Source of the DNA: Deltaproteobacteria bacterium
Lineage (GTDB): Bacteria > Myxococcota > JADLHZ01
DNA length: 57,067 nt
Direction: 5' to 3'
Assembly: GCA_020848545.1 (NCBI GenBank)
Contig: JADLHZ010000001.1
Location: forward strand, 1-57,067
Shown: positions 9,249 to 30,199 of the stretch, piece after piece
Numbering within the stretch: the first letter of the stretch is position 1
Layout: each line of letters opens with the position of its first letter
Notes under the pieces: generated by a model
The model's database searches: none
Seen by the model: only the letters and a program-made list of their open reading frames with translations
What the model was told of the DNA's origin: nothing
Position numbers and translations under genes: made by a program

Positions 9249-9455
9249 ATGGTGCGCAACCTCTACACCACCCACAAGTACGAGCGCGGCGGGCGCTCGT
9301 TCACTCAGTACGTCCGCGTCGGCCACGTCGAAGTCGACCTGGCGAAGGATGACATCGTCGGACGCGTCGTCATCGCCGGGCTCGAACGCTGCGGCCCCCT
9401 GCTGATGCTCAAGCACGAACCGCGCGAAGAGCGCTTCTCTGAGGTGAAGCCATGA
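9249..9455 (+). CDS. Small hypothetical protein of the secretion operon
   Basis: A 68-residue protein begins at the ATG at 9249, 7 bp behind an AGGAG site that overlaps the end of the previous gene. It is mostly beta-strand in character (SFTQYVRVGHVEVDL, GRVVIAGLERCGPLLML) and has no signal peptide or membrane segment. Its stop overlaps the start of the VirB2-like gene in an ATGA, so it is translationally coupled. I do not recognise a family. Its size and place suggest a small cytoplasmic accessory protein. Confidence 0.6.
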   Translation: MVRNLYTTHKYERGGRSFTQYVRVGHVEVDLAKDDIVGRVVIAGLERCGPLLMLKHEPREERFSEVKP

Positions 9456-9920: not shown

Positions 9921-10223
9921 ATGAGAACGACGCGCGTTGCACGCTCCATCGAACGTTCGAGCCGAATTCTCGGCCTGGAAACATTCGATTTCTTTCTTTG
10001 GCTTGGCTCTCTGTCTCTCTGGAGCGAGGGGCGCCGCGTCGCCATCATCTTCAGCGCCCTGTTGTGGGTCGCCCTCTTCGCGCTGCGCTACCGCAGAGCA
10101 CCCGGTTTCTTACTGAGCTTCGTTCGCTACCACGCTTACGCCCTGCTCTGTGACAACCGATTTTCGGCAGCGCAGCGCGAAGCTGTGCACGGCCCCTGGC
10201 TCTCTCTGAGGAATTCCCGATGA
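9921..10223 (+). CDS. virB3-like: VirB3/TrbD-like inner-membrane protein
   Basis: VirB3 is a small membrane protein that associates with the VirB4 ATPase in the inner-membrane complex. This 100-residue protein has a hydrophobic pair of segments in the middle (FDFFLWLGSLSLW and VAIIFSALLWVALFAL) flanked by basic residues, as expected. It lies between the VirB2-like and VirB4-like genes and its end overlaps the VirB4 start (ATGA at 10220). Sequence alone is weakly diagnostic; size, topology and synteny carry the call. Confidence 0.72.
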   Translation: MRTTRVARSIERSSRILGLETFDFFLWLGSLSLWSEGRRVAIIFSALLWVALFALRYRRAPGFLLSFVRYHAYALLCDNRFSAAQREAVHGPWLSLRNSR

Positions 10224-12767: not shown

Positions 12768-13532
12768 ATGAACAATGAACACAGAGAGCCATTCTCCCTC
12801 ACCGAAGACATCGTCCGCCGCATGTGCCGTGACGACATTGTCGTCGTCGGACCACAGGGCAGCGGCAAGAGCCGCCTTCTCGGGCGCCTTGCAGCCACCG
12901 CGATTTCGGCTGGCGAACAGATCCTCGTCGCCACGACGAATGAAGCCGCGTTCGGCACGGTTTTCTCGCAGTCGTGCTTCGAAGAGTGGAGCCGTTGTCA
13001 GATCCACTACTTCGCCCAAGAGAGACGCTCGCTGGCCAAAGAGGCGGCGCGAGACTTCTGCTCGGCGCTCGAGCGCGGCGGCTTCTCTTTGCTGGTCATC
13101 GACGACGTGCTCGGCTCGCTCGGCGGCAGCACACTCGAGCTCGTTGAGCGCGTCATGCTCGAAGAACGCGTGAAGCTGTGGCTTTCCGTCGAACGCCCGA
13201 GCGACTGGGCGCGTTTGCCGTTCGTCTCGCGCCTGCTAGAGACACGGCTTCGGCTATTCACGCTCGGCGCCACTCCCCCGCTCAGCTACATCGTCGAGCA
13301 CCGACGCTACGCGAACGGAAGCACCGCCCAAGACCTCATCACCGACTTTGCCTATCCTCGCGCGGGTTCGCTCGACTTCGTCTTGAACCGCGATTGCCAC
13401 GCGGAGATCGTGCGCCTACCGCTCGACGCGCCGCCGCTCGTGGTTGCCCCGATCCCACCGGTCACGCCCGCTCTTTCTCGCGCGCTTGTAAACGAAGCAC
13501 CCGTCAAACCCGCCCTCGCGGAGCAATGGTGA
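12768..13532 (+). CDS. Small P-loop ATPase of the secretion operon
   Basis: A 254-residue cytoplasmic protein has Walker A GPQGSGKS (28-35) and a Walker B-like SLLVIDDVLG (about 104-113). The spacing and the short helicase-like core resemble FtsK/HerA or T4SS-associated ATPases rather than VirB11, whose Asp and His boxes are not visible. No VirB11/TrbB gene is present in the operon, so this protein may replace it or act with the coupling protein. The C-terminus is proline-rich (PPLVVAPIPPVTPALS). It lies between the VirB4-like and VirB5-like genes. The function is inferred from position. Confidence 0.6.
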   Translation: MNNEHREPFSLTEDIVRRMCRDDIVVVGPQGSGKSRLLGRLAATAISAGEQILVATTNEAAFGTVFSQSCFEEWSRCQIHYFAQERRSLAKEAARDFCSALERGGFSLLVIDDVLGSLGGSTLELVERVMLEERVKLWLSVERPSDWARLPFVSRLLETRLRLFTLGATPPLSYIVEHRRYANGSTAQDLITDFAYPRAGSLDFVLNRDCHAEIVRLPLDAPPLVVAPIPPVTPALSRALVNEAPVKPALAEQW

Positions 13533-13536
13533 CCCG

Positions 13537-14583
13537 ATGACACTGCGACTGTCCTTCTCGTTGTTTCTGACCCTCGTCCTTTTGGTTCTCGGGCTCGACC
13601 AGCTCCGAAGCTCCGGCGCACTTACCGAAGAAGCTTTCGATGTCGGCGCGCTCGCAAGCGTGATCGTCGTGGCAGCGGTCTGCATCCTGCTGCTCGTCGA
13701 CTCGGTATTGTCCTTCGCCTCACGCCGCGCTCACGCCGCGTTCGCTTGGCTACGTGGCAGACGGAGCGAGAAGCCACGCGCCGTTCCTGCAACGCTGCTC
13801 TGCCTCGCCCTACTCTTCTCTGCGCCGACGCGCGCGCATGCTGGCGCCTCGATCCTCGGCTTCTCTGTCGGCGACGACACGATGACCCTCGGTGCGATCC
13901 TCACCGAGATCATCCATCAGGTGAAGATTCTCAACGACGTCGCCACGATGACACGCGTGATGCGCGACAACATCGCCTTCATGAAGGACGTCATCGAGAC
14001 CGGCAACGACCTCGTCAACGGCCGCTGGGAGGTGCTCACCGAGCAGTTTTTGATGACGATCGTCAATTCGGACGAGAACCTGCGCGAGATCTATCGAAAC
14101 ACCTCGCAGATCGTCACAAACCGCGTGCCGCGGAGCAACATGTTCCGCAAGCTGATGATGGCCGGCTTCGAGCACGTCGTCTTCGAGGCCTTTGGCCCCT
14201 ACCCGTTCGGCCGCATCAGCACGGGCTCGGCCTACATGGACGTCAGTGCCATGAGGCTCAACGACCTCGCGCGAGAACAGATGCGCGACTGGAAGAACGA
14301 GCATCGCCGCATCGAGCAGGCGATTCGCGAATGCCAAAAGACGAGCAGTTTTGAGGTCTGCAACTCGGCGGCAAACCGCATGGAGATTCAATCAGCGTTG
14401 CACCTCGAGCAACTGAAGGCCATCGAGGCGGAACGTGCCCAAACCGAGGCTGCGAAGATCGCCGTCGAAAACGGCGAACGCAAGCAACGACAGCTCGCTA
14501 CGCAAAAGGACGTGACCGACGTCGTCGAAGCCGCGGCATCCATCGTTGGCGTCTACTCGGCTGGGATGGGAGCATTTCCATGA
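13537..14583 (+). CDS. virB5-like: VirB5/TrbJ-like protein with an extra N-terminal membrane region
   Basis: TrbJ/VirB5 proteins are periplasmic coiled-coil proteins that cap the pilus and help entry exclusion or adhesion. From about residue 100 this protein is TrbJ-like: IHQVKILNDVATMTRVMRDN, long amphipathic helices, and a coiled-coil C-terminus (HLEQLKAIEAERAQTEAAKIA). A classic signal sequence ending THAHA-like (TLLCLALLFSAPTRAHA) lies at about residues 86-102. Unexpectedly, it is preceded by two further hydrophobic segments (5-20 and 37-60) in the same frame with no internal start codon. An upstream small membrane gene seems to have fused to virB5. Confidence 0.65.
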   Translation: MTLRLSFSLFLTLVLLVLGLDQLRSSGALTEEAFDVGALASVIVVAAVCILLLVDSVLSFASRRAHAAFAWLRGRRSEKPRAVPATLLCLALLFSAPTRAHAGASILGFSVGDDTMTLGAILTEIIHQVKILNDVATMTRVMRDNIAFMKDVIETGNDLVNGRWEVLTEQFLMTIVNSDENLREIYRNTSQIVTNRVPRSNMFRKLMMAGFEHVVFEAFGPYPFGRISTGSAYMDVSAMRLNDLAREQMRDWKNEHRRIEQAIRECQKTSSFEVCNSAANRMEIQSALHLEQLKAIEAERAQTEAAKIAVENGERKQRQLATQKDVTDVVEAAASIVGVYSAGMGAFP

Positions 14584-15947
14584 ACTCGTGGCTCACGACC
14601 GGCGCTCAGCTCAACTACGGCCAGCAACTCGCGGACGGAAAAATCGGGCAGCTTGCGCACGGTATCCTCATGACGTGTGCCATCGTGGCCCTTGCCACGG
14701 CGGCGGTTCGCTATTCGCTCGATCGGCAAGCGAAGAACCCGCTCGCCGTCCTTCCCTGGGCGGCGGGCCTGCTGCTTCTGCTTCACCTCTACGGCTACGT
14801 CGTGACTGCCATCGATGGATCGATGCGCGAGATTGCGGCATCCATCTCGGACAACGGCGCCTTCTCGCAGTTTCTGAACAACTGGGTCACGGAGCTCGGT
14901 AAGCGCTTCAGCTTCGACGTCTCCGGAGCCACGCAGCGCGCGGCCGATGGCGCAGCGCAGATCACGCAAGAAGACGCGAGCGCCCTCGATCGGATTCGCT
15001 CGGTCTGGAACACGCTCGGTATCGTCGGAGACGAAGCGAGTAGCTTCACGACCGCGATGCTTCGGGGCGCATTGAGCGGCCTTCTCGCGCTGCTTTCGGC
15101 CTTCTTCTCCATCGTCTTCTTCGAGGTCTTTTCCGTCCTGCGCGTGACGCTCTTTCAGGTGCTCTACGCCGTGGGGCCACTCGTCATCGCCTTCTCTATT
15201 CTCCCGGGCGCCTCTTCCATCCTCGGTCGCTGGTTCACGGCTGTCTTTGAGATCTGTAGCTGGCAAGTGATCGGCGCCATCGTGTTCGAGCTCGTCGCGA
15301 AGTCGTCGTCCGCGGCGGCATTTACGTCGAACAGCGACAACTTCGTCGCCTTCTGCGTCGCCAACGTCGTCTTCGTCTGCTCAATTCTACTCATCCCGAT
15401 CATCGCGCATCGGATCGTAGGCTCTGGCTTTGGCGCCGTGGGGCAGACCGTGGGAGGTATGATGCTCGCCGGAGTGGCGGGAGGCGTCGCGCTCGCAAAA
15501 CCCTACGCGCAAAGGGCGATGCAAGCGGCCAGCGCCGCCGCAAAGCCCTACGTGACGAAGGGTGCGACGGTCGCCGCCGATGCCATTCGCGCAAAAGCTC
15601 CACGCGGCTCGCTGGCCGAAAGCCCCGACCTGGCCGCGTCCGTTGCCGCAGCGCCGCGCGCAACGAGCCCACAGCAGGTGCAGCAAGTCACTCATGGTCT
15701 GATGGAGCTTGCCGCCGAGCAGCAGGAGAAAGCCGCTGCTCACCGAAGCGCCCGGCGCGAACCTATCGACGCCGTCGCCTTCGCGGACGGCGGGGGCGCC
15801 AAAGGTGGCGCATCACCGCAAAGACAAGAGGCTTCGTCCGCCGAGCAGCTCTTTTCGCAGATGAGCGTAGCGAAGAAGTACGTGCCGCCTGCAGCTCCCG
15901 ACCCGCACGACCCCAACTCACCGCCTGAAAGGAACCACCGGTCATGA
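14580..15947 (+). CDS. virB6-like: VirB6/TrbL-like polytopic membrane protein
   Basis: VirB6/TrbL forms the inner-membrane pore through which the substrate passes. The protein has at least five membrane segments, including ILMTCAIVALATAAV, WAAGLLLLLHLYGYVV, a long pair near residues 155-205 and ANVVFVCSILLIPIIAH. A soluble C-terminal tail of about 140 residues is rich in alanine and charge. The SAFFSIVFFEVFSVLRV and QVLYAVGPLVIAFSILPG segments match the conserved central TrbL region. Its start overlaps the preceding stop (ATGA at 14580) and its stop overlaps the VirB8 start. The 455-residue length is normal for TrbL. Confidence 0.8.
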   Translation: MNSWLTTGAQLNYGQQLADGKIGQLAHGILMTCAIVALATAAVRYSLDRQAKNPLAVLPWAAGLLLLLHLYGYVVTAIDGSMREIAASISDNGAFSQFLNNWVTELGKRFSFDVSGATQRAADGAAQITQEDASALDRIRSVWNTLGIVGDEASSFTTAMLRGALSGLLALLSAFFSIVFFEVFSVLRVTLFQVLYAVGPLVIAFSILPGASSILGRWFTAVFEICSWQVIGAIVFELVAKSSSAAAFTSNSDNFVAFCVANVVFVCSILLIPIIAHRIVGSGFGAVGQTVGGMMLAGVAGGVALAKPYAQRAMQAASAAAKPYVTKGATVAADAIRAKAPRGSLAESPDLAASVAAAPRATSPQQVQQVTHGLMELAAEQQEKAAAHRSARREPIDAVAFADGGGAKGGASPQRQEASSAEQLFSQMSVAKKYVPPAAPDPHDPNSPPERNHRS

Positions 15948-16642
15948 GCGAGAACGCACAGAAGACAGAGAGCCCGAAGCAGGCGCTCGCGCTTCGTTTC
16001 CGACACAGGCAGCCAGAGATCTGGACGCAAGCGTTCGAGGCAAACCGTCGCGTGTGGCGCGCATGCTACGCGCTGCTCGGGCTCCTCGGCTTGTCGTTCG
16101 CGCTCAACATCGTTCAAGCCGGCCGGCCCGCCAACGTCATTCTCGTCGACAAGCTCGGTCGCGCCGAGTTCTACCACGAGGCTGCTTCCCCCGAGCCGGC
16201 ACAGGACTACGAAGCACGGCAATTTGCGGATGATTGGCTCAAGCTCTTTCTTTCGCGTGATGCGATCACCGCGAAGGAAGACCTGGCGCGGGCCCTGACG
16301 CTCATGCACCCGAGCCTCCAAGGTCGCCTTCGCGACAAGCTCATCGCCTCGGGCGAGCTCGACAAACTGCGTGACGCCTTTGTCCACACGACGATCCGCT
16401 GCGCCGAGGTCAAAGTCGCTCGCGTCGCGACCGACCGCGTACAAGTCGATGTGTCGGGGACGCGCACCTTCACGGCGCTCGATTCGAGCAAGAAGCAGCT
16501 TTCGGAACCGTTCAAGTTCAACCTGGTGCTCGACGCCGTTCCGCGTACCGAACACACTCCAAATGGCCTCATCGTTCGCTATCTCACTGGAAGCTGGGGT
16601 AACGAGACGGTCGAGCAAACGGAAGAAAGGGGGCCGGGTTAA
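15944..16642 (+). CDS. virB8-like: VirB8/TrbF-like assembly factor
   Basis: VirB8 is a bitopic inner-membrane protein with a periplasmic NTF2-like domain that nucleates channel assembly. An N-terminal cytoplasmic stretch (about 45 residues) is followed by one membrane span (ACYALLGLLGLSFALNIV, about 42-60). A periplasmic domain of 170 residues then has the expected helices and a twisted sheet (VQVDVSGTRTF, FKFNLVLDAVPRT). Size (232) and order between VirB6 and the VirB9-like gene agree. The last 15 residues (WGNETVEQTEERGPG) look like an unstructured tail. Confidence 0.85.
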   Translation: MSENAQKTESPKQALALRFRHRQPEIWTQAFEANRRVWRACYALLGLLGLSFALNIVQAGRPANVILVDKLGRAEFYHEAASPEPAQDYEARQFADDWLKLFLSRDAITAKEDLARALTLMHPSLQGRLRDKLIASGELDKLRDAFVHTTIRCAEVKVARVATDRVQVDVSGTRTFTALDSSKKQLSEPFKFNLVLDAVPRTEHTPNGLIVRYLTGSWGNETVEQTEERGPG

Positions 16643-16665: not shown

Positions 16666-17526
16666 ATGTTGACCACCACCATCGCCGTCTTTGTGTTGGG
16701 TGCGGCGCAAGAAACCCCGGAAGCCGTTCGCAAGGTGCAGATCACGAACGACAACCGCGCCAAGCACATTCAAGTGAACGTTGGCCCTAACCGCATCACG
16801 TCCGTACGTCTGAGCCGCCCGTTCAATCCGAAGACGCTCTTTTGCGGCGACACGAGCCGCTTCGTCGTTCAGCCCCTCGACGAGAGCCAGATCACCATCA
16901 AGGGGGTCTCGGCCGACATCGGTAAGGACACGAACTGTAACCTCCTCACGCAAACGGCCATCCCGGTCGCGCTCACGCTCGTGATGGTCGAGCCTAAGAA
17001 GGCCGATGCCTTTGTCGACTTGGTCTTCGCCCTGCCGGACCTCCCAACGAGCGAAGTCGATTTGTCGCGGCGGATGCAGCAGCTCGAAACGGCGGCCGAT
17101 GAACGAGTCGTCGCTGCCGTGCGCGAGTGCAAAGACAAGAACGAACTCGCGCTGGTGCAGCGCGCCGCCGACGCCATCGTCGCGCGACACATCGACGAGC
17201 GCGCGATCCACGCTGACGTGATCCTCACGGTCAAAGACTTCGTCAAAGTCGGCAACCGCGGCATCATCCGCTTCGAGCTCGACAACCAGTCGCGCGAAGC
17301 GTTCTCAGCCGGAGAGGTAAAGCTCGAATTTTCAGCGTCCGGAAAGACTCCGGTCACCGTCGAGACCATCGTCCATTACAAACAGCCCGTCATCGACCGA
17401 AACGAGAGCACGTTCGGCGCCTTGAGCTTCGACATGTACCAGCTGAGCGAAGGGGCGAAGTTCACGCTCCAGGTCATGGAAAAGAGCGGCGCGCGCCATC
17501 CGAAGGTGACGGGCCTTCGTCTCTAA
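16666..17526 (+). CDS. virB9-like: VirB9-like outer-membrane-complex protein of DUF2381 type
   Basis: A GAGGAGA site precedes the ATG at 16666. After a short hydrophobic N-terminus (MLTTTIAVFVLGAAQ) comes a beta-rich domain whose QITIKGVSADIGKDTNCNLLTQT segment matches the VirB9/TraK N-terminal pattern (IKP..-D-TNL-x-V-T-T). The C-terminal half, ending PKVTGLRL, resembles DUF2381 (TIGR02268), a paralogous family of myxobacteria. It occupies the VirB9 position between VirB8 and the kinase-VirB10 gene. VirB9 proteins bind VirB10 and VirB7 in the outer-membrane ring. No VirB7 lipoprotein gene was found nearby. The combined VirB9/DUF2381 view is my inference. Confidence 0.65.
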   Translation: MLTTTIAVFVLGAAQETPEAVRKVQITNDNRAKHIQVNVGPNRITSVRLSRPFNPKTLFCGDTSRFVVQPLDESQITIKGVSADIGKDTNCNLLTQTAIPVALTLVMVEPKKADAFVDLVFALPDLPTSEVDLSRRMQQLETAADERVVAAVRECKDKNELALVQRAADAIVARHIDERAIHADVILTVKDFVKVGNRGIIRFELDNQSREAFSAGEVKLEFSASGKTPVTVETIVHYKQPVIDRNESTFGALSFDMYQLSEGAKFTLQVMEKSGARHPKVTGLRL

Positions 17527-17572
17527 AATCGCCGATTTGACGCAATAAGCCGTCGCTTTTTGACTTGCGCGA

Positions 17573-17584
17573 TTTGCACGCAAA
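17573..17584. promoter_or_regulatory. TTTGC-NN-GCAAA palindrome upstream of the XRE gene
   Basis: TTTGCACGCAAA (17573-17584) is a perfect 5+5 palindrome with a 2-bp centre, and GCAAATGCAAA follows at once. It lies 21 bp before the ATG of the XRE-type regulator and could be its operator, giving autoregulation inside the secretion operon. Confidence 0.35.
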
Positions 17585-17604
17585 TGCAAACGGGACCGCC
17601 ACTC

Positions 17605-17916
17605 ATGTCTAATAAACGCTTAAGCAAGGACGCGGGGCATTCGGCAGGAAAGTCGCTCAGACAGATGCGTGTCGCCGCAGGACTGAGCCAACTTCAGCTC
17701 GGCACGAAGCTCGGCATTCACAACGCCCAGCTGTCGAAGATGGAAGTCGGGCGCATCAAAGTGCCACTCACCGCGCTGCTCTCTGCCGCGAAGATTTGCG
17801 GCTTTCGCGTCGCCCTCTTGCCCGAGCGCGGCGAGCCAATCCTCGTCGAAGCCCCACAGCGCTACGTCCGCTCCGGCCAGGGGCGACGTCGATCATCGGA
17901 GTCGAGCCATGCATGA
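17605..17916 (+). CDS. XRE-family helix-turn-helix regulator
   Basis: The ATG at 17605 gives a 103-residue protein with a Cro/CI-type helix-turn-helix at about residues 15-70 (LRQMRVAAGLSQLQLGTKLG, then AQLSKMEVGRIKVPLTALL). The C-terminus (YVRSGQGRRRSSESSHA) is basic and Ser-rich. It overlaps the start of the kinase-VirB10 gene by 8 bp, so the two are co-translated. A regulator embedded between the VirB9-like gene and a kinase could repress the operon and be a phosphorylation target; both ideas are inference. Longer starts are in frame but run through the palindrome at 17573. Confidence 0.75.
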   Translation: MSNKRLSKDAGHSAGKSLRQMRVAAGLSQLQLGTKLGIHNAQLSKMEVGRIKVPLTALLSAAKICGFRVALLPERGEPILVEAPQRYVRSGQGRRRSSESSHA

Positions 17917-20089
17917 GTTCCATCAAGACGATGTGATCGCAGAGCGCTATCAGATCCTCGAAGAGATCGGCCGCGGCGGATTTGGGACCGTCTACAAGGC
18001 GCGGCACCTAAAGCTCGAGTGCGACCTCGCCGTGAAGACGATGCAGCTCGACCACGCCGAGCTGACAAACCGCGAGGCACCAGCAGCCTTCGAGCGCTTC
18101 AAGAAGGAAGCCCAGGCGCTGACGAAGCTCGCCCACACCGGAATCGTTCAAGTTATCGATTTCGGCTTCGCGAGTGAGAGCACGCCGTATCTCGTCATGA
18201 AGTACGCGCCGGGGCTCCCGCTCCTCAAATGGGGCGAGCAGACCTCGCCGACCATCAAGCAGTGGCTCACCGTGTTTCGAAAAATCTTCGAGGCGCTCGA
18301 ACACGCGCACGAGCAGAACATCATCCACCGCGATCTGAAGTCCTCGAACGTGCTCGTCAGCGGCACCGCCGACAAGCCGAAGGTCTCGATCATCGATTGG
18401 GGCATCGCCTACTCGCCAGGGAGCGCGCGTCTTACGCAAGCAGAGGGCGTGATCGGTACCCTCGGTTACATCGATCCCATCAATCTCAATCGCCCGAGCG
18501 CCGAGTTCGTTCCGCAAAGCGACTTCTACGCGGTGGGCGGGCTGCTCTACGAAGCTCTTTGCAAACGCGTGCCGTTTAAGTTCACAGACGACATGTCGCC
18601 ACTCGCGCGCCGGTCCGTGCTCGCGCACAACGAGGTCGAGAGGCCTCGCCTCGCAAACGCCGACGTGTCCGGCCTGCTCGAGCGCTTCATCCTCCGCTTG
18701 ATGGCAACCGAACGCGACCTTCGGCCGCCAACGGCGCGCGCGGCGATCGTCATCATCGAAAAACTCCTCGCAGACGAGCACTTCGACATCGACGACATCT
18801 ACGCCATGCACCCGTTCGTCGCCCCGAGCGTTGAGGTTCCAGCGGTGAGCTCAGCGCCGCCCGGCGCAGCGCCGGTCACTGGCGACGACGCAAATCGCCG
18901 TCTTGCCGAACAACTCGAAGCGGCGAAGGCGAAAGCCGATTCGGTCGAGTCAAAGAAGACAGTCCCGCTCAACGTGCCAAACGCCCTCGGAAAGGGCGCG
19001 CTCGACCTCTCTGCCATCGGCAGCAAGCAGAAGCAGCCCGAGGAGCGCCCGGCGTCCTTTGAAAACAACGCGGAGAAGCTCGGGCTCACAATCGCTCCGC
19101 AAGAGCGCAAGCGCCTCCACCCCCTGGTGCTTCCGATCGCGGCAGCCGCAGTTGCCGTCGTTGCAACGTTGATCATGACGGACGCGCTGCGAAGCGGGCG
19201 ATCGATGGGGCCTGCTCAAGCACCCTCCTTTGTCCCCCACCCTGTCAGCGTCGCCGATCTCGAGACGAAGAAGGACGAAACCACCCTCGCGAAGTTTGCG
19301 CCCGAGGAACCAAAAACGAACGCGCTCAGCGGACTCTCGCCCGAGATCAAGGCCAACTACCCCCAGAGCCTCGGCGGCGACGCTCCTCCCGGTCCGGTCG
19401 GAACCTTGGCCGGACACGGTGGCAGCAAACGCAAGCACGCCGTCGAGGACGACGAACGGGAAGAGCCTCGCGAGAAGAAGCGCGAAGAGTTTGACCGCAC
19501 CCTTCGGCCGGCCGGCAGCGTCGCGTCGGATCGAGACAGAACGCCCGACGACCCTCGCAACAACCGCCTCGCTATTCCGCACAACACCGAGGCCGATGTC
19601 CGTCTCATCGATACGCTCGACACCTCGAACGATGAGCCCGTCCGGGCCGAGCTCGTTCGGTCGCTGTCGCTCAACGGCAACGTCGTCCTTCCTATCGGCG
19701 CCATTTTGTGGGGCAAGACGCAGCTTCGCTATCAGCGGGCGCAGGTTCGCTTCGATCGCGTTGTCCTTCCAAACGGCGAAGAGCGGCGCATCAACGCCAC
19801 GGCTGTCACGAGCGATGGTCGAGACGGCATCGAGGGCGGCCGATTCGAGTTTGGCGACCCGCCTGACAACAAGGCGCAGCAGAAGGTGCTCCGCGCCGTT
19901 GGTACCGTTGCCGCCGAAACCGTCAGCTCCCTGATCCCCGGAACCGATGGCCTCTCGCGCAGTGCCCAACAGCTTTCGCAAGACGAGATCCGCGATGCCG
20001 CGAACACGAAGCCCGACAACCCGAAGTCGCGCAATCGCGTCGTCGTTCAACGCAAGACTCAGTTCTCCATCCGTTTCACCACCCAATGA
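17909..20089 (+). CDS. Ser/Thr protein kinase fused to a VirB10-like channel domain
   Basis: Residues 1-290 form a eukaryotic-like kinase: glycine loop GRGGFGTV (21-28), ATP lysine K43, catalytic HRDLKSSN (140-147) and metal-binding D163 in a DWG variant of DFG, so it should be active. After a charged Ala-rich linker (about 300-400) there is one membrane span (406-424). A long polar Pro/Lys/Glu linker then leads to a C-terminal domain (about 565-726) that reads as VirB10/TrbI. That domain has VRAELVRSLSLNGNVVLPIG, ILWGKTQ and a DRVVLPNGEERRINATAV segment. VirB10 spans inner to outer membrane and senses ATP use by VirB4 and VirD4. The order cytoplasmic kinase, membrane span, periplasmic VirB10 is topologically correct. 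The gene sits where virB10 belongs, after VirB8 and VirB9. A stand-alone virB10 gene is absent. Confidence 0.82.
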   Translation: MHEFHQDDVIAERYQILEEIGRGGFGTVYKARHLKLECDLAVKTMQLDHAELTNREAPAAFERFKKEAQALTKLAHTGIVQVIDFGFASESTPYLVMKYAPGLPLLKWGEQTSPTIKQWLTVFRKIFEALEHAHEQNIIHRDLKSSNVLVSGTADKPKVSIIDWGIAYSPGSARLTQAEGVIGTLGYIDPINLNRPSAEFVPQSDFYAVGGLLYEALCKRVPFKFTDDMSPLARRSVLAHNEVERPRLANADVSGLLERFILRLMATERDLRPPTARAAIVIIEKLLADEHFDIDDIYAMHPFVAPSVEVPAVSSAPPGAAPVTGDDANRRLAEQLEAAKAKADSVESKKTVPLNVPNALGKGALDLSAIGSKQKQPEERPASFENNAEKLGLTIAPQERKRLHPLVLPIAAAAVAVVATLIMTDALRSGRSMGPAQAPSFVPHPVSVADLETKKDETTLAKFAPEEPKTNALSGLSPEIKANYPQSLGGDAPPGPVGTLAGHGGSKRKHAVEDDEREEPREKKREEFDRTLRPAGSVASDRDRTPDDPRNNRLAIPHNTEADVRLIDTLDTSNDEPVRAELVRSLSLNGNVVLPIGAILWGKTQLRYQRAQVRFDRVVLPNGEERRINATAVTSDGRDGIEGGRFEFGDPPDNKAQQKVLRAVGTVAAETVSSLIPGTDGLSRSAQQLSQDEIRDAANTKPDNPKSRNRVVVQRKTQFSIRFTTQ

Positions 20090-20152: not shown

Positions 20153-20806
20153 GTGATTTCGTTTCGCTCATGGATCCAAGCACTGCTCACTGCCGCCACG
20201 CTGGTTGCGTGGTCAGGCAGCGCGAGCGCCCATCAGCGCGAATTCGGCATCAGCATTCAGCCCGCCTTCGCTGGTTTTCCTGCCGTCGCCGACCCGAACT
20301 CACAGCCCGGACTCGCCCTCACCGCAGGGGGCGGCATCGGCCTCGAGTTCTATCCGCTCAAGTACATGGCGATCGTTTCTCGGCTCGCCTACACGCACGC
20401 GCTCACCACCACGACGATCGGCCAAGCGACGTTCAACAACGAAGCCGGCTTCCCTCGCACCGGAGACTACTACTTCAAGCAGAGCACGGCCTTCGCCTCG
20501 CTCGGCCTGCGCCTTGAGACACCGTCGTGGTGGCTGCCGGTCCAATTCCACATCGGCGTCGGCGGCGGGTTCGCGTTGTCCATCCAAACGGAACGAAAGC
20601 TCCTCGCTGACGGACAAGACCTGCGGATTCCCCTCAACGACATCGTGAAGGTGGCGCCGATCATACCGGTGACCACGGGGCTTTTCGTCAGGGTCGCGAG
20701 CCAGGTGCGCTTCGATCTCGACGGAACGCTGTTCGTCTTCCCCCAAAACCCCGTGCTCGTCGGCTTCGGCATCACGCTCGCGCTGACGTTTCTTTTCTAC
20801 ACGTGA
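20153..20806 (+). CDS. Outer-membrane beta-barrel-like protein
   Basis: A GTG start gives a clear signal peptide (MISFRSWIQALLTAATLVAW then SGSASA-HQ). The mature part, about 190 residues, has alternating hydrophobic strands (MAIVSRLAYTHAL, FASLGLRLETPSW, VQFHIGVGGGFALSIQ) and ends in an aromatic residue region (ITLALTFLFYT), as outer-membrane barrels do. It is the first gene after the secretion operon under a look-alike promoter. It may anchor the following lipoproteins or widen the outer-membrane exit. The exact family is not recognised. Confidence 0.6.
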   Translation: MISFRSWIQALLTAATLVAWSGSASAHQREFGISIQPAFAGFPAVADPNSQPGLALTAGGGIGLEFYPLKYMAIVSRLAYTHALTTTTIGQATFNNEAGFPRTGDYYFKQSTAFASLGLRLETPSWWLPVQFHIGVGGGFALSIQTERKLLADGQDLRIPLNDIVKVAPIIPVTTGLFVRVASQVRFDLDGTLFVFPQNPVLVGFGITLALTFLFYT

Positions 20807-20818: not shown

Positions 20819-23728
20819 ATGTTGGCTAGCAACAAGACGACCATCGTTCTCGCCGCAACGCTCGCGCTGCAGGGCGGCTGCAAACCAGAGTCTCGGCCTA
20901 TCGCCACGAAGGTCACGGGTCAGGCGGTCGCGCTCTCTCCGATCGTTTCCGCCCAGGCGCGCGCGCTCTTGCTGCACGAAAGTGGCCCGGAAGTATTGAG
21001 CGAGACCCTCACCGACGCCGAAGGAAAGTTCGAGCTCGACCTCAAAGACGCCATCGGTACGGTGGTGATCGAGATCGTCGGGACTGCGGGCGGCGAGACG
21101 AAGGAACCGATCTCCGGAAACGCCGTCCAGCTCTCGTACACCGACAGATTCGCGACGATCCTCGCGGGCGTAAAGCCCGGAAAAACCTACGACGGCATCC
21201 AAGTCAGCGTCTGGTCCACGCTCATCGAAGCGCGGGCGCGCTGGGACATCGAGAAGAACGGCCGCCCTGCCGACGAGGCACTCGTCGATACCGTCTCGCT
21301 CTTTACGTCGCATTTTGGCGGCGTCCCTTTCATCGACGGCGCTGCGCCGCCGCTCGACCCAAGCGCCGGACCGGTCAACGGTCTCAGCTCGGGCGCCGTG
21401 CATGGTTTTCTCACCACGGCGGTCGCGGCGATGGGCAACGAGCTCAGCCGTCGACTCCGACTCACCGAGGGTATCCGCCTCAACACCGTCTCCACGACGA
21501 TGATGCTCGCCGATGACCTTTGCGACGGCGTCTTCGATGGCGTTGGAAAGAGCGGCAAGATCATCATCGTCGATGAGGAGGCGCTCGACCTCGAGGCTTC
21601 GCGCTTGTTTCTCGCTGGTGCGCTCGGCACCTTCATGACCTCCGACAAGAACCGCTCTGGGCTCGCGCTCTCCGATCTCACCGCGCTCATCAACGCCGTC
21701 GCGTCCGATACGTCGATTCTCTACGGGCTGAAGCCGAGCATCGCCGTAAGCGAGGGCGACGGGCCCAAGATCACGCTGACCGGGCCGATCTCCGGAAACA
21801 CCTTGCGCGACCAGGTGGTGATTTCCGGCAAGGCGGAAAGCCCGAGTGGCGTCGCTGGCGTCGAGATCTTCCTCGACGACAACAAGATGAGCGGCGGCGA
21901 TCGCCAGAGCGTGAGCGAAGTAACCTGGGCGCTCACTTCGGAGCTGACCGACGGTTTTCACGTCGTCAAAGTCACCGCGCGCGACTCAGCGGGAAAGCAC
22001 AGCTCCCTGACCGTGACGTTTCAGTCGGACAAGACGCCCCCGACGATCAAGTTCGGCTACTGCCTCTCCTACAACGACAGAGAGCGGCCTTCTTTGCCGT
22101 TCTACAACGCGCCCATAGGCGCGTATGATTGGCGCTCCCCTGCCCCACCCGATCCCGACTGCACTGCGGCAGCTTTGGAAGACGCCGACCCCGTCTATGT
22201 GTTTCGTTCTTTCGCCGAGCTCGCCAAGGCGCCCAGCACCAGCTCCCGCCTCGCGTTCGTCCCCGAGGACGATGGCCCGATCGCCACCGCACAACCCGAC
22301 ATCATTTTCGAGGCCAGCGTTTGGCGCGGCAGCAAGCAGGTCGGCAACGCAGCTCGGGTCAAAGCACGGACAAACGAATCGTCGCGCGAGGTTGCACTCT
22401 CGTCGACGCTCTTCGGCGCCGACTTCTTGAATGTCTCGCCGCGTGACCTGCTCGAGCTGCGCGTCGCCGCCGTCGATGCGCTCGGCAACGAAGTGACAAA
22501 GACTTACCACTTCTCGATCGATTTCTTGCCGGCGCCCCTGCTCGTGACGGAAGCCACGCCGAACGCGGCATCGTCCGAGCGCGTCGAGTCCTATACGTTC
22601 GGCGCTGGCAACGTCACCCAGCTCTTCGATCCTGGCGCAGGCCTCCCTGTAGGGCTGCTCATCGCCAAGCGCTACAACATCACGAACCCATCGGATCGGT
22701 CGGTGGCACTGCGCTTTGCAATGACGCCATATGCGCAGCCGAGCGCGAGCTACTCGGAGTGGGTGGGCTTCGTCGTCGGCGAACGTCTCGGCGCTGGCAC
22801 GAAGACTCAGGTGCAGGTCGCGCCGACCGCGGCGGAGCTCCCTCCACCAGAGGTTGCGGTTCCATTCGACTGCTACAACAGCGATCCCGCCGAGTACCTC
22901 GCCCGAGCGAGTCTTCAGAACGCCGCAAAGGTCGTCGCGGTCACCGATGGCGCGACGACCTGCATCGACTCGAACTCCCTGCTCACAGAGCAACCCGTCG
23001 CCACAACAAGCTCATCTTGGACGTATCGGGTACATACGCCCTCTGGCGAGCTTCGCTTCGCGAAGAATGGCGACTACGTCGTCGAGCCCGGCGAAACGCT
23101 TCAGGTCTCGATCGGCTTTCCAAAACCGTTCTTCCCGGCGCGCACGATCAATGCCTGCGTCCCAAACTTCCGGCTCACCGACTACGTCGGCCACACGGGC
23201 GGGCGTTACTCGATGTACTACGAGCTCTACGGCTACTCGCCCGAGACCTTCGTCGCGCCGTTCGGCGTTTTCTCATCCGTAAGACGCTTGGGCGGCAACA
23301 GCAGCGCCGCCACGACCTGGGACGGACCAGGCTGGACCGATTGTTCAGGCGTAAACTGCACGGGCCCCGGTTGCCGCGTCGAGGGCCAATACGAGTATCG
23401 ACTGCGCGTCGCGGCTGCACTCGGCAGCGCCGATTACTGCTTCGTTCAGGGTTGCGGTGACAGCTGTCCCTACAACAACTGCCAGCGCCAGGCGTGGCGC
23501 GAATATCACGAGTACGCGCTGTCGAAGCTCACGCAGCCCTACCGCTTTTCGATTGCCGGCACGGCGTCCATCTCGACGTCCTCGCGCCTGACGACGAATC
23601 CCGACGTCAGCGACGTCCTCTTCAACTTGCCGAGCGAGACCTTCAACGTGAGCCACTCAGACAAGAGCGCGCGCTCGGTCTCGCCCGCCTTCGAATCAGT
23701 CGTCTTCACGAAAGGGACACTGCCGTGA
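20819..23728 (+). CDS. Giant surface lipoprotein, paralogue of the one at 24498
   Basis: The 969-residue precursor has a lipoprotein signal ending LQGG-C21. Domains, in order: a carboxypeptidase-regulatory or transthyretin-like segment (about 30-110, ALLLHESGPEVLSETLTDAEGKF); a helical domain (about 110-300); an Ig-like repeat (about 315-410, GPISGNTLRDQVVISG then GFHVVKVTARDSAGK); and a long beta-rich C-terminal part with several Cys pairs (DCSGVNCTGPGCRVEG and CFVQGCGDSCPYNNC). Such proteins act in adhesion or in cell-surface recognition. Its linkage to the transfer genes suggests mating-pair contact. The paralogue has the same domain plan. Confidence 0.65.
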   Translation: MLASNKTTIVLAATLALQGGCKPESRPIATKVTGQAVALSPIVSAQARALLLHESGPEVLSETLTDAEGKFELDLKDAIGTVVIEIVGTAGGETKEPISGNAVQLSYTDRFATILAGVKPGKTYDGIQVSVWSTLIEARARWDIEKNGRPADEALVDTVSLFTSHFGGVPFIDGAAPPLDPSAGPVNGLSSGAVHGFLTTAVAAMGNELSRRLRLTEGIRLNTVSTTMMLADDLCDGVFDGVGKSGKIIIVDEEALDLEASRLFLAGALGTFMTSDKNRSGLALSDLTALINAVASDTSILYGLKPSIAVSEGDGPKITLTGPISGNTLRDQVVISGKAESPSGVAGVEIFLDDNKMSGGDRQSVSEVTWALTSELTDGFHVVKVTARDSAGKHSSLTVTFQSDKTPPTIKFGYCLSYNDRERPSLPFYNAPIGAYDWRSPAPPDPDCTAAALEDADPVYVFRSFAELAKAPSTSSRLAFVPEDDGPIATAQPDIIFEASVWRGSKQVGNAARVKARTNESSREVALSSTLFGADFLNVSPRDLLELRVAAVDALGNEVTKTYHFSIDFLPAPLLVTEATPNAASSERVESYTFGAGNVTQLFDPGAGLPVGLLIAKRYNITNPSDRSVALRFAMTPYAQPSASYSEWVGFVVGERLGAGTKTQVQVAPTAAELPPPEVAVPFDCYNSDPAEYLARASLQNAAKVVAVTDGATTCIDSNSLLTEQPVATTSSSWTYRVHTPSGELRFAKNGDYVVEPGETLQVSIGFPKPFFPARTINACVPNFRLTDYVGHTGGRYSMYYELYGYSPETFVAPFGVFSSVRRLGGNSSAATTWDGPGWTDCSGVNCTGPGCRVEGQYEYRLRVAAALGSADYCFVQGCGDSCPYNNCQRQAWREYHEYALSKLTQPYRFSIAGTASISTSSRLTTNPDVSDVLFNLPSETFNVSHSDKSARSVSPAFESVVFTKGTLP

Positions 23729-24477
23729 TCCGTATTTCCTTCGCTTTGCTTCTTCTCACGAGCTGCACCGGCCTCACAGGTAGCGCTCAGCGCGGTGATA
23801 CCGGCGCACAGGGTCCGCAAGGAGAGCGCGGGCCAAAGGGCGACACGGGCTCCAAGGGTGACGCCGGTAGCGACGGTGTCTGCGACGCGTCCGCGTGCAC
23901 GTCGGTGACGAGTGTCAACGGCCTCGGCGGCGGCACGCTCACTGGTCAGCTCACCGTGCCGAGCGTCAACGTCACATCGTCCATCACCGTGGATTCAGGC
24001 TCCGCGCCGAACCCGCGAGGGATCGTCGTTGCTCGCGGCGGAAAGCAGACGTCGATCAACGGTTTCTATTGCGGAAAGACGAGCTTCAACGTGGACGGTC
24101 TTCTGAGCGATCAAACGCAAACTCAGCCACCGAATGGCATCCATGGTGTGCTCCGGCAGGCAAAGAATCATTGCGAGGTGGCTTGCAGTCACGCCGCTGC
24201 GCATCCCTGCTCGACGGGCGAGATCTTGCAGTCAATCCAGTTGGGTGGAGGATCAGCGACTTTCACGGCCAATGAGCCAAACGCGGCCGTGCCCATGCCT
24301 CCGTCGAATGGCTCGGCAGTTTATTGGGTGCTTCCCCCGGACGGCAACGCCGAGTGCTTCAGTTGGACCGGAGGAGGCACGACTCTTAAGGGCGTCGTCT
24401 ACAAGTTCATCGCAGATGAAGGCGCGTTTCTAAAAGAGAACTGCGATCAAGCGCATCCCCTCCTTTGCTGCCTGTGA
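23725..24477 (+). CDS. Collagen-like lipoprotein
   Basis: A GTG at 23725 overlaps the previous stop and gives a 250-residue lipoprotein (signal ISFALLLLTSC, Cys at 14). A short collagen-like tract of about nine Gly-X-Y triplets follows (GDTGAQGPQGERGPKG and on, about residues 24-50). The rest is a Ser/Thr- and Gly-rich globular part with Cys residues (GFYCGKTSF, HCEVACSHAA, LLCCL). Collagen-like stalks of this sort trimerise and display a tip domain on bacterial and phage surfaces. It lies between the two giant lipoproteins in one operon. Confidence 0.65.
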   Translation: MIRISFALLLLTSCTGLTGSAQRGDTGAQGPQGERGPKGDTGSKGDAGSDGVCDASACTSVTSVNGLGGGTLTGQLTVPSVNVTSSITVDSGSAPNPRGIVVARGGKQTSINGFYCGKTSFNVDGLLSDQTQTQPPNGIHGVLRQAKNHCEVACSHAAAHPCSTGEILQSIQLGGGSATFTANEPNAAVPMPPSNGSAVYWVLPPDGNAECFSWTGGGTTLKGVVYKFIADEGAFLKENCDQAHPLLCCL

Positions 24478-24497
24478 TCCCCATGACGGAGCTCTCC

Positions 24498-27305
24498 ATG
24501 TTCACTCGTTCAACAACGCTCACGATCGCAGCCACGCTGGCGTTCGGCGCCTGTACGCCCGCGCGAAAGCTCGCCGACTCTTCCGATGGTCTGGCGCCGA
24601 CCAGCACCGTGCAGTCGCAACGTATCACCGGGCGCGCCCTTCTCGTCGCGCCGATCGCGAACGCGCATGTCACGGTGTTGCGCCTCGCTGCGGCCACGCC
24701 TGACGAGCCGATCGCCGAGACGATGACGAACGACAAGGGCGAGTTCGATCTCGAGCTTCCCTTCGCCACGAACGGCGACCTGCTCGTCCAGGTTCTCGGC
24801 GACCGCGGAGGCTCGACGCTTGAGCCAGTGACTGGCGTGGCGCCGATTTCGCTTTCCGAGAACGACCGCCTCGCTGCACTCGCCGTGGGCACGAAGGTCG
24901 GCGACCAGATCACCGTGATGATCAATCCCCTTTCCACCTTGGTCGCGGCGCGTAGCGTGGCCGAGTTCCGCTCCGGCGCGCGCCTCGGCGACGCCTACAA
25001 GAAGAACGTGGACCTCTTCTCGGCACACTTTCGCACCGCTTCGCCGTGGCTCGCCGCGCCAGTCGATCTCACAGCGGGCTCTGCGCCCGGGCTTGCGACC
25101 GGCGTCATCGCGGGCCTCGTCCTCATCGGTCTGTCGCAACACGCGCTCGAGCTCGGCAGTCGCGCGGACGTGAACGACGTCTCTATCGTCAACTCGCTCG
25201 TCCTTTTGCGCCTGCTCGTTGCGGACCTCCAAGACGGCATCTTCGACGGCAAGAACGGCGAGACGCCGCTGAAGGTTGTCGGGAACGTATTCATCGACGC
25301 CGAAACGACCCGCTTGTCGCTCGCAAAATCGATCGAGAGCTGGCTCGACTCGCCCGCGAACAAGACGGCGCTCACAAAGCGCGACGTTTCACAGGTGACC
25401 TCGGCCATCCGCGAGGATCTTTCCGAGCTCTACCCCGCAGCCGAGACGCCGCCGCAGGAGATCCCGGAGACGCAGCAGTCGGGCGCTCCTCCGGCCATCA
25501 CCATCACCTCGCCGCAGCCAAACCAGACGCTCGGAACGACCGACCTTGTCTCGGGCTACGTCGAAGACGCCGACAGCGTTTCGTCCTTCACGCTGCTCCT
25601 CGATGGAAAGCACATTCTCATTCCGCTCGACACGAGCACCCCGACGAAGTGGTCTTTCGCCTTCCCTCCCGATCTCGACACCGGAAGCCACGTGCTTCAG
25701 GTCACGGCACTAGACGCCAAAGGCAACCAGAGCAGTAAGCAGGTGGCCTTCGCCTACGACAAGACGGCTCCGAGCGTGTCGCTCGTTCAGTGTTTTGCGC
25801 CCGACGACCGGGTGCGCGCTGCAACGGTGACCATCGGCGGCGCGACCTATGCAAATACGACGACCATGGGCTCGTGCGTCGAAGGCGCGCTCAGCGACGG
25901 GTCGCAGAATTTCTACACCTACGCCGATCTTTACGAGGAAGGCGGCGAGCGCGCACCGTTCATCGCGCTGTCGACGACCGATACGGCGCTCGCCTCAGCG
26001 ACCTACGTCGTCAAGGTGAACGACGCCGTTGTTCGGACGGCAACGCCGCTGCCGACAGCGCAGGGACCTGCCGCGACGCACATGATCACTCTTAGCAGCG
26101 CCTTTCTCGGGCTCGGCGCCACGAGTGTGCATGCGGCTGACTCAATCGCGGTGGAAGTGACCGCCACCGATGCGAGCGCCAACTCGTCGACACGTATCTT
26201 TCGCTTTCACCTGACGCTGATTCCAACGCCGCTCTTCATCCAAGAGCAGCCCACGGACGCCGTGTCGAGCCTCGTCTCGCACACGTTCGCGGCGAACAAC
26301 GTCCAAGAGCTTTTCCACCAGACGTTCTCCTACCCGACCCCAGGCCCATGCGGGTCTTACTACTGTCAGGGTTTTGCCGAGTCGCTCATCCACGTGACGA
26401 AGTTCTTCGTCGTGAACGTCTCGTCGCGTCCACTGGCGATGGCGTTTGACTGGCCGACTGCAGTCTCCGGCTCGATGAGCCTTCAACGCTCGGCGTTTCG
26501 CACGTACATCATCAGTAACCCGAAGGCGTATGCGCTCGGTCCGAGTCCGTGCGCCGAGATGACCGAGGTCGACTACTTCGAGGACTACGGCTCGTACGTC
26601 CCGAACTACGCGACGCAGACCTGCGTTTCCATCGCGAACAACTTCAAGCGAGGCAAGAACACCGAGTCGTTGCAGTTCACCCCGGTCATCGCGGTCTATG
26701 AACAGCCGGGGAACGTCCGCGTGACGGGATCGCCGGTCACGATGAGCCCGGGCAAGCAGTATTCGGTCGTCATCGCCATGTACAACCTGAGCGTGGCCCC
26801 CTACCCTACCCAGCTCGTCAACACGCAGTACCCGCCGCGCGACAAGGGCCTCAATATCGGCAGCGCCTACATCGCGGCCTACGGCAGCAACTTCTCGATC
26901 AGCTACTCGGCGCCCACACAGATCGCCGACGAGAACGGCTTTCTCGGGGTCAAAGGTATCCTGTGGAACTCATCGACGTCGCTCTACTCGAACTTCCGCG
27001 GCTACATCGGTCACGAGAACTGGTACGTGCCGTGGCCCGAGACCGGCGTTAACCGCACGCACCTCGTGCGCTCCGGGAACTCGAACTACCGTTTCAGCCC
27101 CGTCGTCTTCGAACACTCGCTGACGTTTTCGAGCAGCGTGAAGTGGAAGGCCACGACGGCAATGAGCGCTGCGGACCCGCTCTTTGTGGGGACTGGCGAC
27201 CACCAGCCGGTCGCCACCCTCTCCTCCCACTCGACAGTGATGCCGCAACCGAACGTCTGCCCGTACCAGAACCCGCTCTGCAACGCGGACATGACGGGTT
27301 GGTAA
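24498..27305 (+). CDS. Second giant surface lipoprotein, paralogue of the one at 20819
   Basis: The ATG at 24498 has GGAG 8 bp ahead and yields a lipoprotein signal ending AFGA-C19. The domain plan follows the protein at 20819: regulatory-like beta domain (ALLVAPIANAHVTVLRLA, ETMTNDKGEFDLEL), helical domain (VTGVAPISLSENDRLAALAVG and NPLSTLVAARSVAEF), Ig-like repeat (SPQPNQTLGTTDLVSGYVED, GSHVLQVTALDAKGNQSSKQ), then a long beta-rich region. Shared phrases such as DLQDGIFDG/DLCDGVFDG show descent from one ancestor. Cysteines are fewer here. A role in surface contact or pilus interaction is inferred from its operon. Confidence 0.65.
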   Translation: MFTRSTTLTIAATLAFGACTPARKLADSSDGLAPTSTVQSQRITGRALLVAPIANAHVTVLRLAAATPDEPIAETMTNDKGEFDLELPFATNGDLLVQVLGDRGGSTLEPVTGVAPISLSENDRLAALAVGTKVGDQITVMINPLSTLVAARSVAEFRSGARLGDAYKKNVDLFSAHFRTASPWLAAPVDLTAGSAPGLATGVIAGLVLIGLSQHALELGSRADVNDVSIVNSLVLLRLLVADLQDGIFDGKNGETPLKVVGNVFIDAETTRLSLAKSIESWLDSPANKTALTKRDVSQVTSAIREDLSELYPAAETPPQEIPETQQSGAPPAITITSPQPNQTLGTTDLVSGYVEDADSVSSFTLLLDGKHILIPLDTSTPTKWSFAFPPDLDTGSHVLQVTALDAKGNQSSKQVAFAYDKTAPSVSLVQCFAPDDRVRAATVTIGGATYANTTTMGSCVEGALSDGSQNFYTYADLYEEGGERAPFIALSTTDTALASATYVVKVNDAVVRTATPLPTAQGPAATHMITLSSAFLGLGATSVHAADSIAVEVTATDASANSSTRIFRFHLTLIPTPLFIQEQPTDAVSSLVSHTFAANNVQELFHQTFSYPTPGPCGSYYCQGFAESLIHVTKFFVVNVSSRPLAMAFDWPTAVSGSMSLQRSAFRTYIISNPKAYALGPSPCAEMTEVDYFEDYGSYVPNYATQTCVSIANNFKRGKNTESLQFTPVIAVYEQPGNVRVTGSPVTMSPGKQYSVVIAMYNLSVAPYPTQLVNTQYPPRDKGLNIGSAYIAAYGSNFSISYSAPTQIADENGFLGVKGILWNSSTSLYSNFRGYIGHENWYVPWPETGVNRTHLVRSGNSNYRFSPVVFEHSLTFSSSVKWKATTAMSAADPLFVGTGDHQPVATLSSHSTVMPQPNVCPYQNPLCNADMTGW

Positions 27306-27359: not shown

Positions 27360-27486
27360 TTGACTAAATTCCGGGCGCATTTATGAGTTGAACATGAGTG
27401 AAATTTTCCACTCAGCTTTTGACAAACTCTCGGCGAACGAGTGCGCGAGTCAGTTCGCTCACTCGTCCGCAATGTTTCCGTCGAGT
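27360..27486 (+). promoter_or_regulatory. parAB promoter region with clustered GAGTG/CACTC motifs
   Basis: TTGACT (27360-27365), 16 bp, TATGAG (27382-27387) is a fair promoter. Downstream are repeated GAGT-type elements on both strands: an inverted TGAGTG...CACTCA near 27394-27413 and an inverted ACGAGTG...CACTCGT near 27436-27468. ParA proteins with a DNA-binding N-terminus bind their own operator, so these are candidate ParA or ParB sites. No classical parS palindrome was seen. Confidence 0.4.
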
Positions 27487-27584
27487 CATCGAGCAACTCT
27501 CCCGCAAACAGTCATCCGCTACTTCCGCTCAGAGCACAAAGAATCATGCAACCCATCGTCGACCCACGCACCCGAGGTGAAGCA

Positions 27585-28649
27585 ATGAAGAGCACCGCCG
27601 AAGTACTCGAACTCACCGGCATCCCGCGCGAGAAGCTCTACTATCTCGAAGACTGCGGTCTTCTGAAGTCCAAAAAGACAAAGCGTGGCTCGCGCGAAAC
27701 CCGCGAGTGGCACGACGGAGACATCGACCTCATCAAGCGAGCCTGGACGTACATGTCCGAAGGCGTTCGAGTGAAGACGGCATTCGAGCGGGCCAAGAAG
27801 GAAGTCGAGCAGCGCAATGCCGCACTCGACGCCGCCCCCTCCTCTTCCATGATCTACACCTTCGCCAACCAAAAAGGCGGCGTCGGAAAAACCTCGCTCT
27901 GCTTTCACCTCGCAGGCGCCTTCGCGGACACGAACAAGCGAGTGCTCGTCATCGACCTCGACCAACAGGGCAACCTGTCGAGCGCGCTCATCGACGACAT
28001 CTACGCCACGCGCGGTACGATCGCCGACCTGTTCCTGCACGACGCGGACATCAACGACCTCATCATCCCGACGAAGACGGACGGCGTCTGGCTCATCCCC
28101 GCTAACCTCGACTTCTCCACCGTTGACATGAAGATGGCCGGCGACAAATACGCCGACGAGATTCTGCAGCAGAAGCTGAGCTCAATCATCGAGCCCTTTG
28201 ACGTCATCCTCATCGACGCCCCACCCTCGCTTGGCATCGCCACACGCGCAGCACTCAACGCCGCGCACGACCTAATCATCCCGGTCGAATGCCAAAAATG
28301 GAGCGTCATCGGAACGAAGCACCTGGACGCCGCTGTCACCCAAATCAAGGCGCGCTCGAATCCGAACCTGCGCCTCGCGGGCTATCTCATCAACAAGTAC
28401 AAGTCGGCACGCACCGTCGAACAGCAGTACAGAGAGACGCTCATCCGCCGTCACAAAGAGCTGATGTTCAAGACCGAAATCAAGGACACGGTGGCCTTCA
28501 CGGAGGCCGCCGCCGTCTCTCAGCCAATCACCCGCTACAAGAAGAAGTCGGAAGAGTCGCAGGTCATCGTCGCCCTCATGCGCGAGATGACCGAGCGCTA
28601 CCTGACGCGGGAACAAGAACAACAGAGCAGCGCGAAGCGAGTGGCTTAG
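27585..28649 (+). CDS. parA: ParA partition ATPase with MerR-type N-terminal domain
   Basis: ParA drives plasmid segregation by ATP-dependent binding to nucleoid DNA. The ATG at 27585 follows GAGG at 7 bp; longer starts add only non-protein-like sequence. The N-terminal 75 residues form a MerR-like helix-turn-helix (TAEVLELTGIPREKLYYLED). The ATPase follows with a deviant Walker A KGGVGKT (about 100), VLVIDLDQQGN (Walker A') and VILIDAPPSLG (Walker B). The 354-residue length and DNA-binding N-terminus place it in type Ia, which also autoregulates the operon. ParB1 follows after 31 bp. Confidence 0.92.
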   Translation: MKSTAEVLELTGIPREKLYYLEDCGLLKSKKTKRGSRETREWHDGDIDLIKRAWTYMSEGVRVKTAFERAKKEVEQRNAALDAAPSSSMIYTFANQKGGVGKTSLCFHLAGAFADTNKRVLVIDLDQQGNLSSALIDDIYATRGTIADLFLHDADINDLIIPTKTDGVWLIPANLDFSTVDMKMAGDKYADEILQQKLSSIIEPFDVILIDAPPSLGIATRAALNAAHDLIIPVECQKWSVIGTKHLDAAVTQIKARSNPNLRLAGYLINKYKSARTVEQQYRETLIRRHKELMFKTEIKDTVAFTEAAAVSQPITRYKKKSEESQVIVALMREMTERYLTREQEQQSSAKRVA

Positions 28650-28680
28650 TCCGTAACCCGGAACGAAGAAGGAGCGTCCA

Positions 28681-29592: not shown

Positions 29593-29598
29593 CATTTA

Positions 29599-30172: not shown

Positions 30173-30199
30173 TTCGCTGAAGCTTCAAGGGGAAAGACC

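Follow-up and report, generated by a model that had tools for sequence, protein, structure and literature searches.

VirB10 forms a ring through the cell envelope, with at least 14 copies in known type IV secretion systems (T4SSs), and the cytoplasmic tails of natural VirB10 proteins contact VirD4. Ser/Thr kinases meet secretion machines in other ways. In the PpkA/PppA/Fha system, a membrane Ser/Thr kinase controls the type VI secretion system (T6SS), and LegK1 and CtkA are Ser/Thr kinases linked to T4SSs as their effectors. Kinases of the PknB/Stk1 type combine a cytoplasmic Hanks kinase with one membrane span and an extracytoplasmic domain able to assemble or activate. VirB10 and Hanks kinases are thus each known, and their union in one channel core subunit appears to be a new element: open-access literature searched for a kinase–VirB10 (TrbI) fusion, also in connection with DUF2381, contained none. 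It is a general question how conjugation channels register their own assembly, their loading or contact with a recipient; a kinase placed in the ring subunit offers a readout open to direct testing, namely phosphorylation of channel components, and K43 offers a clean mutant. Here, a fusion of this kind is described in a 57,067-nt contig, called the window below.

The kinase–VirB10 protein

The protein encoded at 17909–20089 belongs to a plasmid-borne myxococcotal T4SS of the conjugation type and is its VirB10 subunit; in it, a Hanks-type Ser/Thr kinase that looks catalytically intact, as judged from its sequence, replaces the usual short cytoplasmic tail of VirB10. The frame is unbroken over its 726 residues and contains the intact kinase core that the original prediction had described (GRGGFGTV at 21–28, K43, HRDLKSSN at 140–147 and DWG at 163–165). 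A frameshift between the two halves was looked for and none was found, the frame being single and four paralogues being present in the genome. Pfam Pkinase matches residues 14–273 with E 1.4e-37, and the NCBIfam PknB model matches residues 8–371, below that model's cut-off. Hydropathy finds the single membrane span that had been proposed, and basic residues slightly favour its N-terminal side, as for an N-in protein, in agreement with the expected order cytoplasm–membrane–periplasm; among kinase–VirB10 fusions, basic residues mostly favour the same side. The parts of the protein are as follows:

17909–20089, + strand: Ser/Thr kinase–single span–VirB10/TrbI fusion, 726 aa (ORF, Pfam, hydropathy, model)
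17948–18727, + strand: kinase domain, residues 14–273, with K43, E67, HRD 140–142, DWG 163–165 and activation-loop T176 (Pfam PF00069 and motif alignment)
19124–19180, + strand: single transmembrane segment, residues 406–424 (hydropathy)
19571–20086, + strand: VirB10 C-terminal domain; two helices, modelled with low confidence, are inserted at the VirB10 antenna position (Pfam TrbI, AlphaFold model, PDB matches)

The C-terminal region had been predicted to be VirB10/TrbI-like from residue 565 onward; its identity stands, the fold being that of VirB10, but the domain begins earlier, at about residue 555. The Pfam TrbI/VirB10 model (PF03743) matches residues 556–664 with E 1.5e-6 at 28.6 bits; scores for the protein run from 28.6 to 31.4 bits against a cut-off of 35, which is exceeded by the paralogue on contig C126 (37.9 bits) and by the Anaeromyxobacter fusions. 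A model of residues 540–726 (187 residues), built from a seven-sequence alignment, has a pLDDT of 73.5, with values of at least 90 over most of the beta core. When it was compared with the PDB by Foldseek, 25 chains were matched at E ≤ 0.001, and all belong to the VirB10 family, that is, to T4SS outer-membrane-complex subunits: Xanthomonas X-VirB10, R388 TrwE, pKM101, F-type TraB, CagY, ComB10 and Dot/Icm DotG. The VIA-align Z scores are 10–15.8 for the VirB10-family chains versus 3.4 for the next unrelated row. Since the modelled fold matches the VirB10 family, the sub-threshold PF03743 call can be considered settled as far as the model goes; a profile-based sequence search of the PDB returned nothing relevant. 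In the antenna region, helices 116–132 and 152–159 of the model have a VirB10-like placement, but with pLDDT below 50.

With the VirB10/TrbI family (TrwE, X-VirB10, ComB10, CagY, F-type TraB, DotG), the fusion shares the C-terminal fold, the one span, a Pro-rich periplasmic linker and the place after VirB9, whereas the Ser/Thr kinase of about 280 residues and its linker are an N-terminal addition on the cytoplasmic side, and identity is 14–20%. The layout is equally that of PknB/Stk1-type kinases, except that the extracytoplasmic part is VirB10 instead of PASTA. The nearest functional analogue is the PpkA/PppA/Fha control of T6SS, where a membrane Ser/Thr kinase is likewise tied to a secretion machine; however, PpkA is a separate regulator, while the kinase of the fusion is part of a channel core subunit, and neither a conserved PP2C phosphatase nor an FHA partner was found among the window ORFs scanned. 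LegK1 and CtkA differ in being exported substrates rather than a subunit of the channel.

The T4SS operon and its plasmid-like setting

The conjugative T4SS set present in the window comprises the VirB4 and VirD4 ATPases, VirB6, VirB8, VirB9, VirB10 and a pilin. The operon, its neighbours and the plasmid genes are listed below:

6542–8377, + strand: VirD4/TraG coupling protein (Pfam TraG-D_C, T4SS-DNA_transf)
8365–8961, + strand: VirB1-like lytic transglycosylase (Pfam SLT)
9452–9913, + strand: VirB2/TrbC pilin-like protein (Pfam TrbC, above cut-off)
9921–10223, + strand: 100-aa hydrophobic protein directly upstream of VirB4, possible VirB3 (position and sequence only; no Pfam match)
10220–12751, + strand: VirB4/TraC ATPase (NCBIfam TIGR02746, E 5e-69; Pfam)
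13537–14583, + strand: VirB5-position protein, no family assigned, kept in all four loci of the genome (conserved order)
14580–15947, + strand: VirB6/TrbL-like protein (Pfam TrbL, just below cut-off)
15944–16642, + strand: VirB8/TraE-like protein (weak Pfam TraE/VirB8 match here and in paralogues, conserved order)
16666–17526, + strand: VirB9-like protein, DUF2381/TIGR02268 relative (weak CagX match; fold matches)
17560–17916, + strand: XRE-type HTH protein encoded between virB9 and virB10, specific to the window copy (Pfam HTH_31)
20153–20806, + strand: exported 217-aa protein, kept in all four loci of the genome (conserved order, sequence)
20819–23728, + strand: large lipoprotein with Ig domains, a conserved partner encoded after kinase–VirB10 (Pfam Big_7, lipobox GC, relatives elsewhere)
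24465–27305, + strand: second large Ig-domain lipoprotein (sequence, neighbourhood comparison)
27441–31690, + strand: ParA, ParB and Rep3-like replication initiator, plasmid backbone (gene content)
50768–51877, + strand: Replic_Relax protein, candidate relaxase/replication protein (Pfam PF13814)

The matches of VirB6, VirB8 and VirB9 lie below the Pfam cut-offs, and these assignments are supported by the paralogues and gene order. As had been claimed, the fusion occupies the virB10 position, coming after VirB9, and like VirB10 it has one span, is N-in and lies downstream of VirB9 in the operon. The CagX match of the VirB9-like protein is weak in the window copy, and its paralogues match DUF2381/DUF4138; for its model, which is of low confidence (pLDDT 57.9), the PDB matches are headed by the F-type outer-ring protein, TrwF/VirB9 and X-VirB9. 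In this way a structural origin as VirB9-like would be gained for DUF2381, whose function is unknown and which many Myxococcaceae genomes carry in at least 10 copies. A P-loop NTPase gene (12768–13532) stands between virB4 and the VirB5-position gene and is absent there from the three paralogous loci.

The gap between virB9 and the kinase–virB10 gene (17526–17909) holds the XRE gene in the window and an AbiEii-type nucleotidyltransferase toxin gene in a paralogue (L004:9449–11252), and it is possibly a cargo insertion spot. The XRE regulator had been put forward as a target of the kinase; being specific to the window copy, with the AbiEii-type gene in another copy's gap, it hardly qualifies as a conserved partner. 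Relatives of the two Ig-domain lipoproteins, which are possible surface adhesins, occur in seven loci (L005, L031, L038, L043, L096, L183 and L196).

By its Rep, ParA, ParB and Replic_Relax genes, the contig appears to be a plasmid-like element; its ends have no exact overlap that would indicate circularity, so the case for a plasmid comes from gene content and relatives. The one relaxase candidate of the window is the PF13814 Replic_Relax protein, of a family also annotated on a Myxococcus plasmid, that of strain MxC21-1. An improbable reading of the locus is that the T4SS serves chiefly as a weapon or an injector of effectors that depends on contact, and that the kinase sets it off when contact is made, in the way that PpkA acts on T6SS. 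It draws on the predatory habit of the phylum, on the large Ig-domain surface lipoproteins adjoining the operon and on the two Myxococcus plasmids that carry relatives of the fusion, neither of which has a recognised relaxase type (MOB-suite types both as non-mobilizable); VirD4, Replic_Relax, Rep, ParAB and the plasmid location, however, indicate DNA transfer. Elsewhere in the window, the gene at 41922–45350 adjoins an AbiEii gene (40853–41833); its product has 1142 residues, contains WD40 repeats and ends in a caspase-like domain (Peptidase_C14). Next after an MmeI-type restriction-modification protein (32843–35602) come a DEAD-box helicase and a T5orf172/MUG113 protein.

Recurrence and constraint of the fusion

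Three further loci of the same genome (G000) repeat this operon order together with the fusion, so that four diverged T4SS copies with kinase–VirB10 lie on contigs C1, C22, C126 and C160; whole-protein identity of the window fusion to two of its three paralogues is 33–36%. The search for homologues of the same order in other Myxococcota, which had been suggested as a check, was productive: a VirB10-domain profile search of 195 Myxococcota genomes, followed by neighbourhood reading, gave about 23 loci with a kinase–VirB10 frame after VirB9, mostly preceded by VirB4, VirB6 and VirB8 if the contig reaches that far. Named carriers, from a scan of genome contigs with a five-row alignment, are Anaeromyxobacter soli, A. 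oryzisoli, A. terrae and Myxococcaceae MAGs. The fusion is carried by two complete circular plasmids, one of 64,379 bp in Myxococcus sp. MxC21-1 and one of 49,970 bp, pYRE, in M. stipitatus YRE12. Since it recurs in many myxobacteria and on both finished Myxococcus plasmids, the fusion is real; a chance or assembly joining of two genes is ruled out by the four own paralogues, the roughly 23 loci and the two plasmids, and its probability is negligible. Similar operons with a kinase-less VirB10 exist in L196 (a 73.5-kb contig), L049 and L037, and because of these three versions the kinase is to be seen as a recurrent module that is not obligatory for such machines. When 72,556 plasmids were searched by tblastn, the window VirB10 domain alone gave no match, and the Anaeromyxobacter and pYRE VirB10 domains matched only the two Myxococcus plasmids; a scan of IMG/VR gave none. 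In a contig binned as 'Actinomycetes' (L091), the kinase–VirB10 is 96% identical to that of Anaeromyxobacter over the kinase, and this contig is likely misbinned.

Essentially all aligned kinases retain the catalytic residues (Lys, Glu, HRD, Asn, Asp and Gly), the exceptions being DFS in one Myxococcus chromosomal copy and a replaced HRDxK lysine in two kinases of the second type described below. An activation-loop Thr (T176 in the fusion) occupies its column in each of the 28 aligned kinases, and we take it to align with PknB's activating Thr. Among Anaeromyxobacter species, constraint is strongest on the kinase (dN/dS 0.036–0.053, NG86), weaker on the VirB10 part (0.075–0.149) and weakest on the linker (about 0.25); two pairs of greater divergence (L046 versus L096 among them) show the kinase and the VirB10 part under similar constraint, the kinase not more so. 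Pairwise distances of the kinase and VirB10 halves are correlated (Mantel r 0.855; none of 10000 permutations as high), as simple co-inheritance would also predict.

The kinase probably lets the T4SS channel signal into the cell. A mechanism that we give an even chance of being correct is that the VirB10 ring gathers the kinases and that its assembly or gating drives phosphorylation, making channel state a switch for transfer. The kinases would encircle the channel on its inner side, beside the VirB4/VirD4 ATPases, and would be brought together either by ring assembly or by a change in VirB10 shape on recipient contact or substrate loading. Trans-autophosphorylation on the conserved T176 would follow, and then, as we infer, phosphorylation of a cytoplasmic partner near the channel, which could be the coupling ATPase, a relaxase-like protein or a host regulator; the outcome would be outside-in sensing or inside-out gating. 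Large Ig-domain surface lipoproteins, which adjoin the operon in several loci, would fit contact sensing. It is rather doubtful that the kinase is instead an assembly or docking module that binds VirB4/VirD4 in an ATP-dependent or structural manner, with no phosphorylation signalling: known VirB10 cytoplasmic tails do touch VirD4, and two kinase types, or no kinase, can serve, but the conservation of catalytic and activation-loop residues in the aligned kinases goes beyond a scaffold's needs.

Kinase clades and detached modules

In trees with a background of 28 host-genome kinases, one supported group (99/92; 97/96 in the second tree) unites 19 T4SS kinases with 6 DUF2381-linked kinases from Myxococcus. 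A second group, type II (7 rows; support 100/99), has motifs such as HRDVSPQN, and its monophyly is relative to the sample, whose background is without other HRDVS-type kinases. Type II includes the kinase–VirB10 of pYRE, itself at the VirB10 place of a T4SS; the other members are kinase–VirB10-like proteins that have a canonical unfused VirB10 at a distance of 10–16 kb and occur in three Anaeromyxobacter-family genomes (two in the genus of named Anaeromyxobacter species) and in G120. A DUF2381-like gene precedes the type II kinase in both Anaeromyxobacter-family loci tested; none was recognised near the G120 type II kinase. Two kinase recruitments onto VirB10, or one with a later domain replacement, are both possible. 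As two distinct kinase clades share the same operon place, the VirB10-fused position itself would seem to be useful.

DUF2381 matches were found in 78 of the 195 genomes, often at least about 11 per Myxococcaceae genome. For several of these genes, the next gene encodes a kinase with a VirB10-like C-terminal domain or a free lipoprotein with that domain (L081–L088), and a profile comparison relates the detached domain to the T4SS VirB10 domain with a probability of 95 and E 2.7e-8. The chromosomal pairs of this paralogous Myxococcus family (DUF2381/TIGR02268) thus resemble the window locus in having a VirB9-like partner, after which a kinase or lipoprotein bearing the VirB10-like domain often comes; unlike it, they are annotated as of unknown function, and no T4SS genes lie beside them in the 7–9 kb stretches read. 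Such a distribution of gene pairs suggests that the VirB9/kinase–VirB10 pair has been reused as an envelope sensor, secretion-channel parts serving as signalling receptors. A broader reading, held tentatively and given somewhat less than an even chance, is that the T4SS channel is a receptor kinase self-activated by the VirB10 ring, that kinases were recruited at least twice and that T4SS-detached VirB9/kinase–VirB10-like pairs were reused as multiplied envelope sensors.

The detached pairs bear equally on an alternative that is possible but unlikely, namely signalling from plasmid to host, whereby the kinase would tell the host kinase network of the plasmid channel and alter motility or envelope physiology with no gating of the channel. 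The host is rich in kinases (84 Pkinase matches in the genome), the T4SS-free pairs have multiplied in Myxococcaceae, where there is no channel to gate, and their kinases fall inside the T4SS kinase clade. In T4SS loci, on the other hand, the kinase stays at the VirB10 place and co-diverges with VirB10, and the detached copies may have a new role. The second kinase/VirB10-like protein, antenna-less, that lies near an unfused VirB10 T4SS in the Anaeromyxobacter family and in G120 is encoded at L174:1145–3991, L176:12312–14213, L177:12980–15839 and L175:17535–19715; L174 and L177 also hold a DUF2381-like gene.
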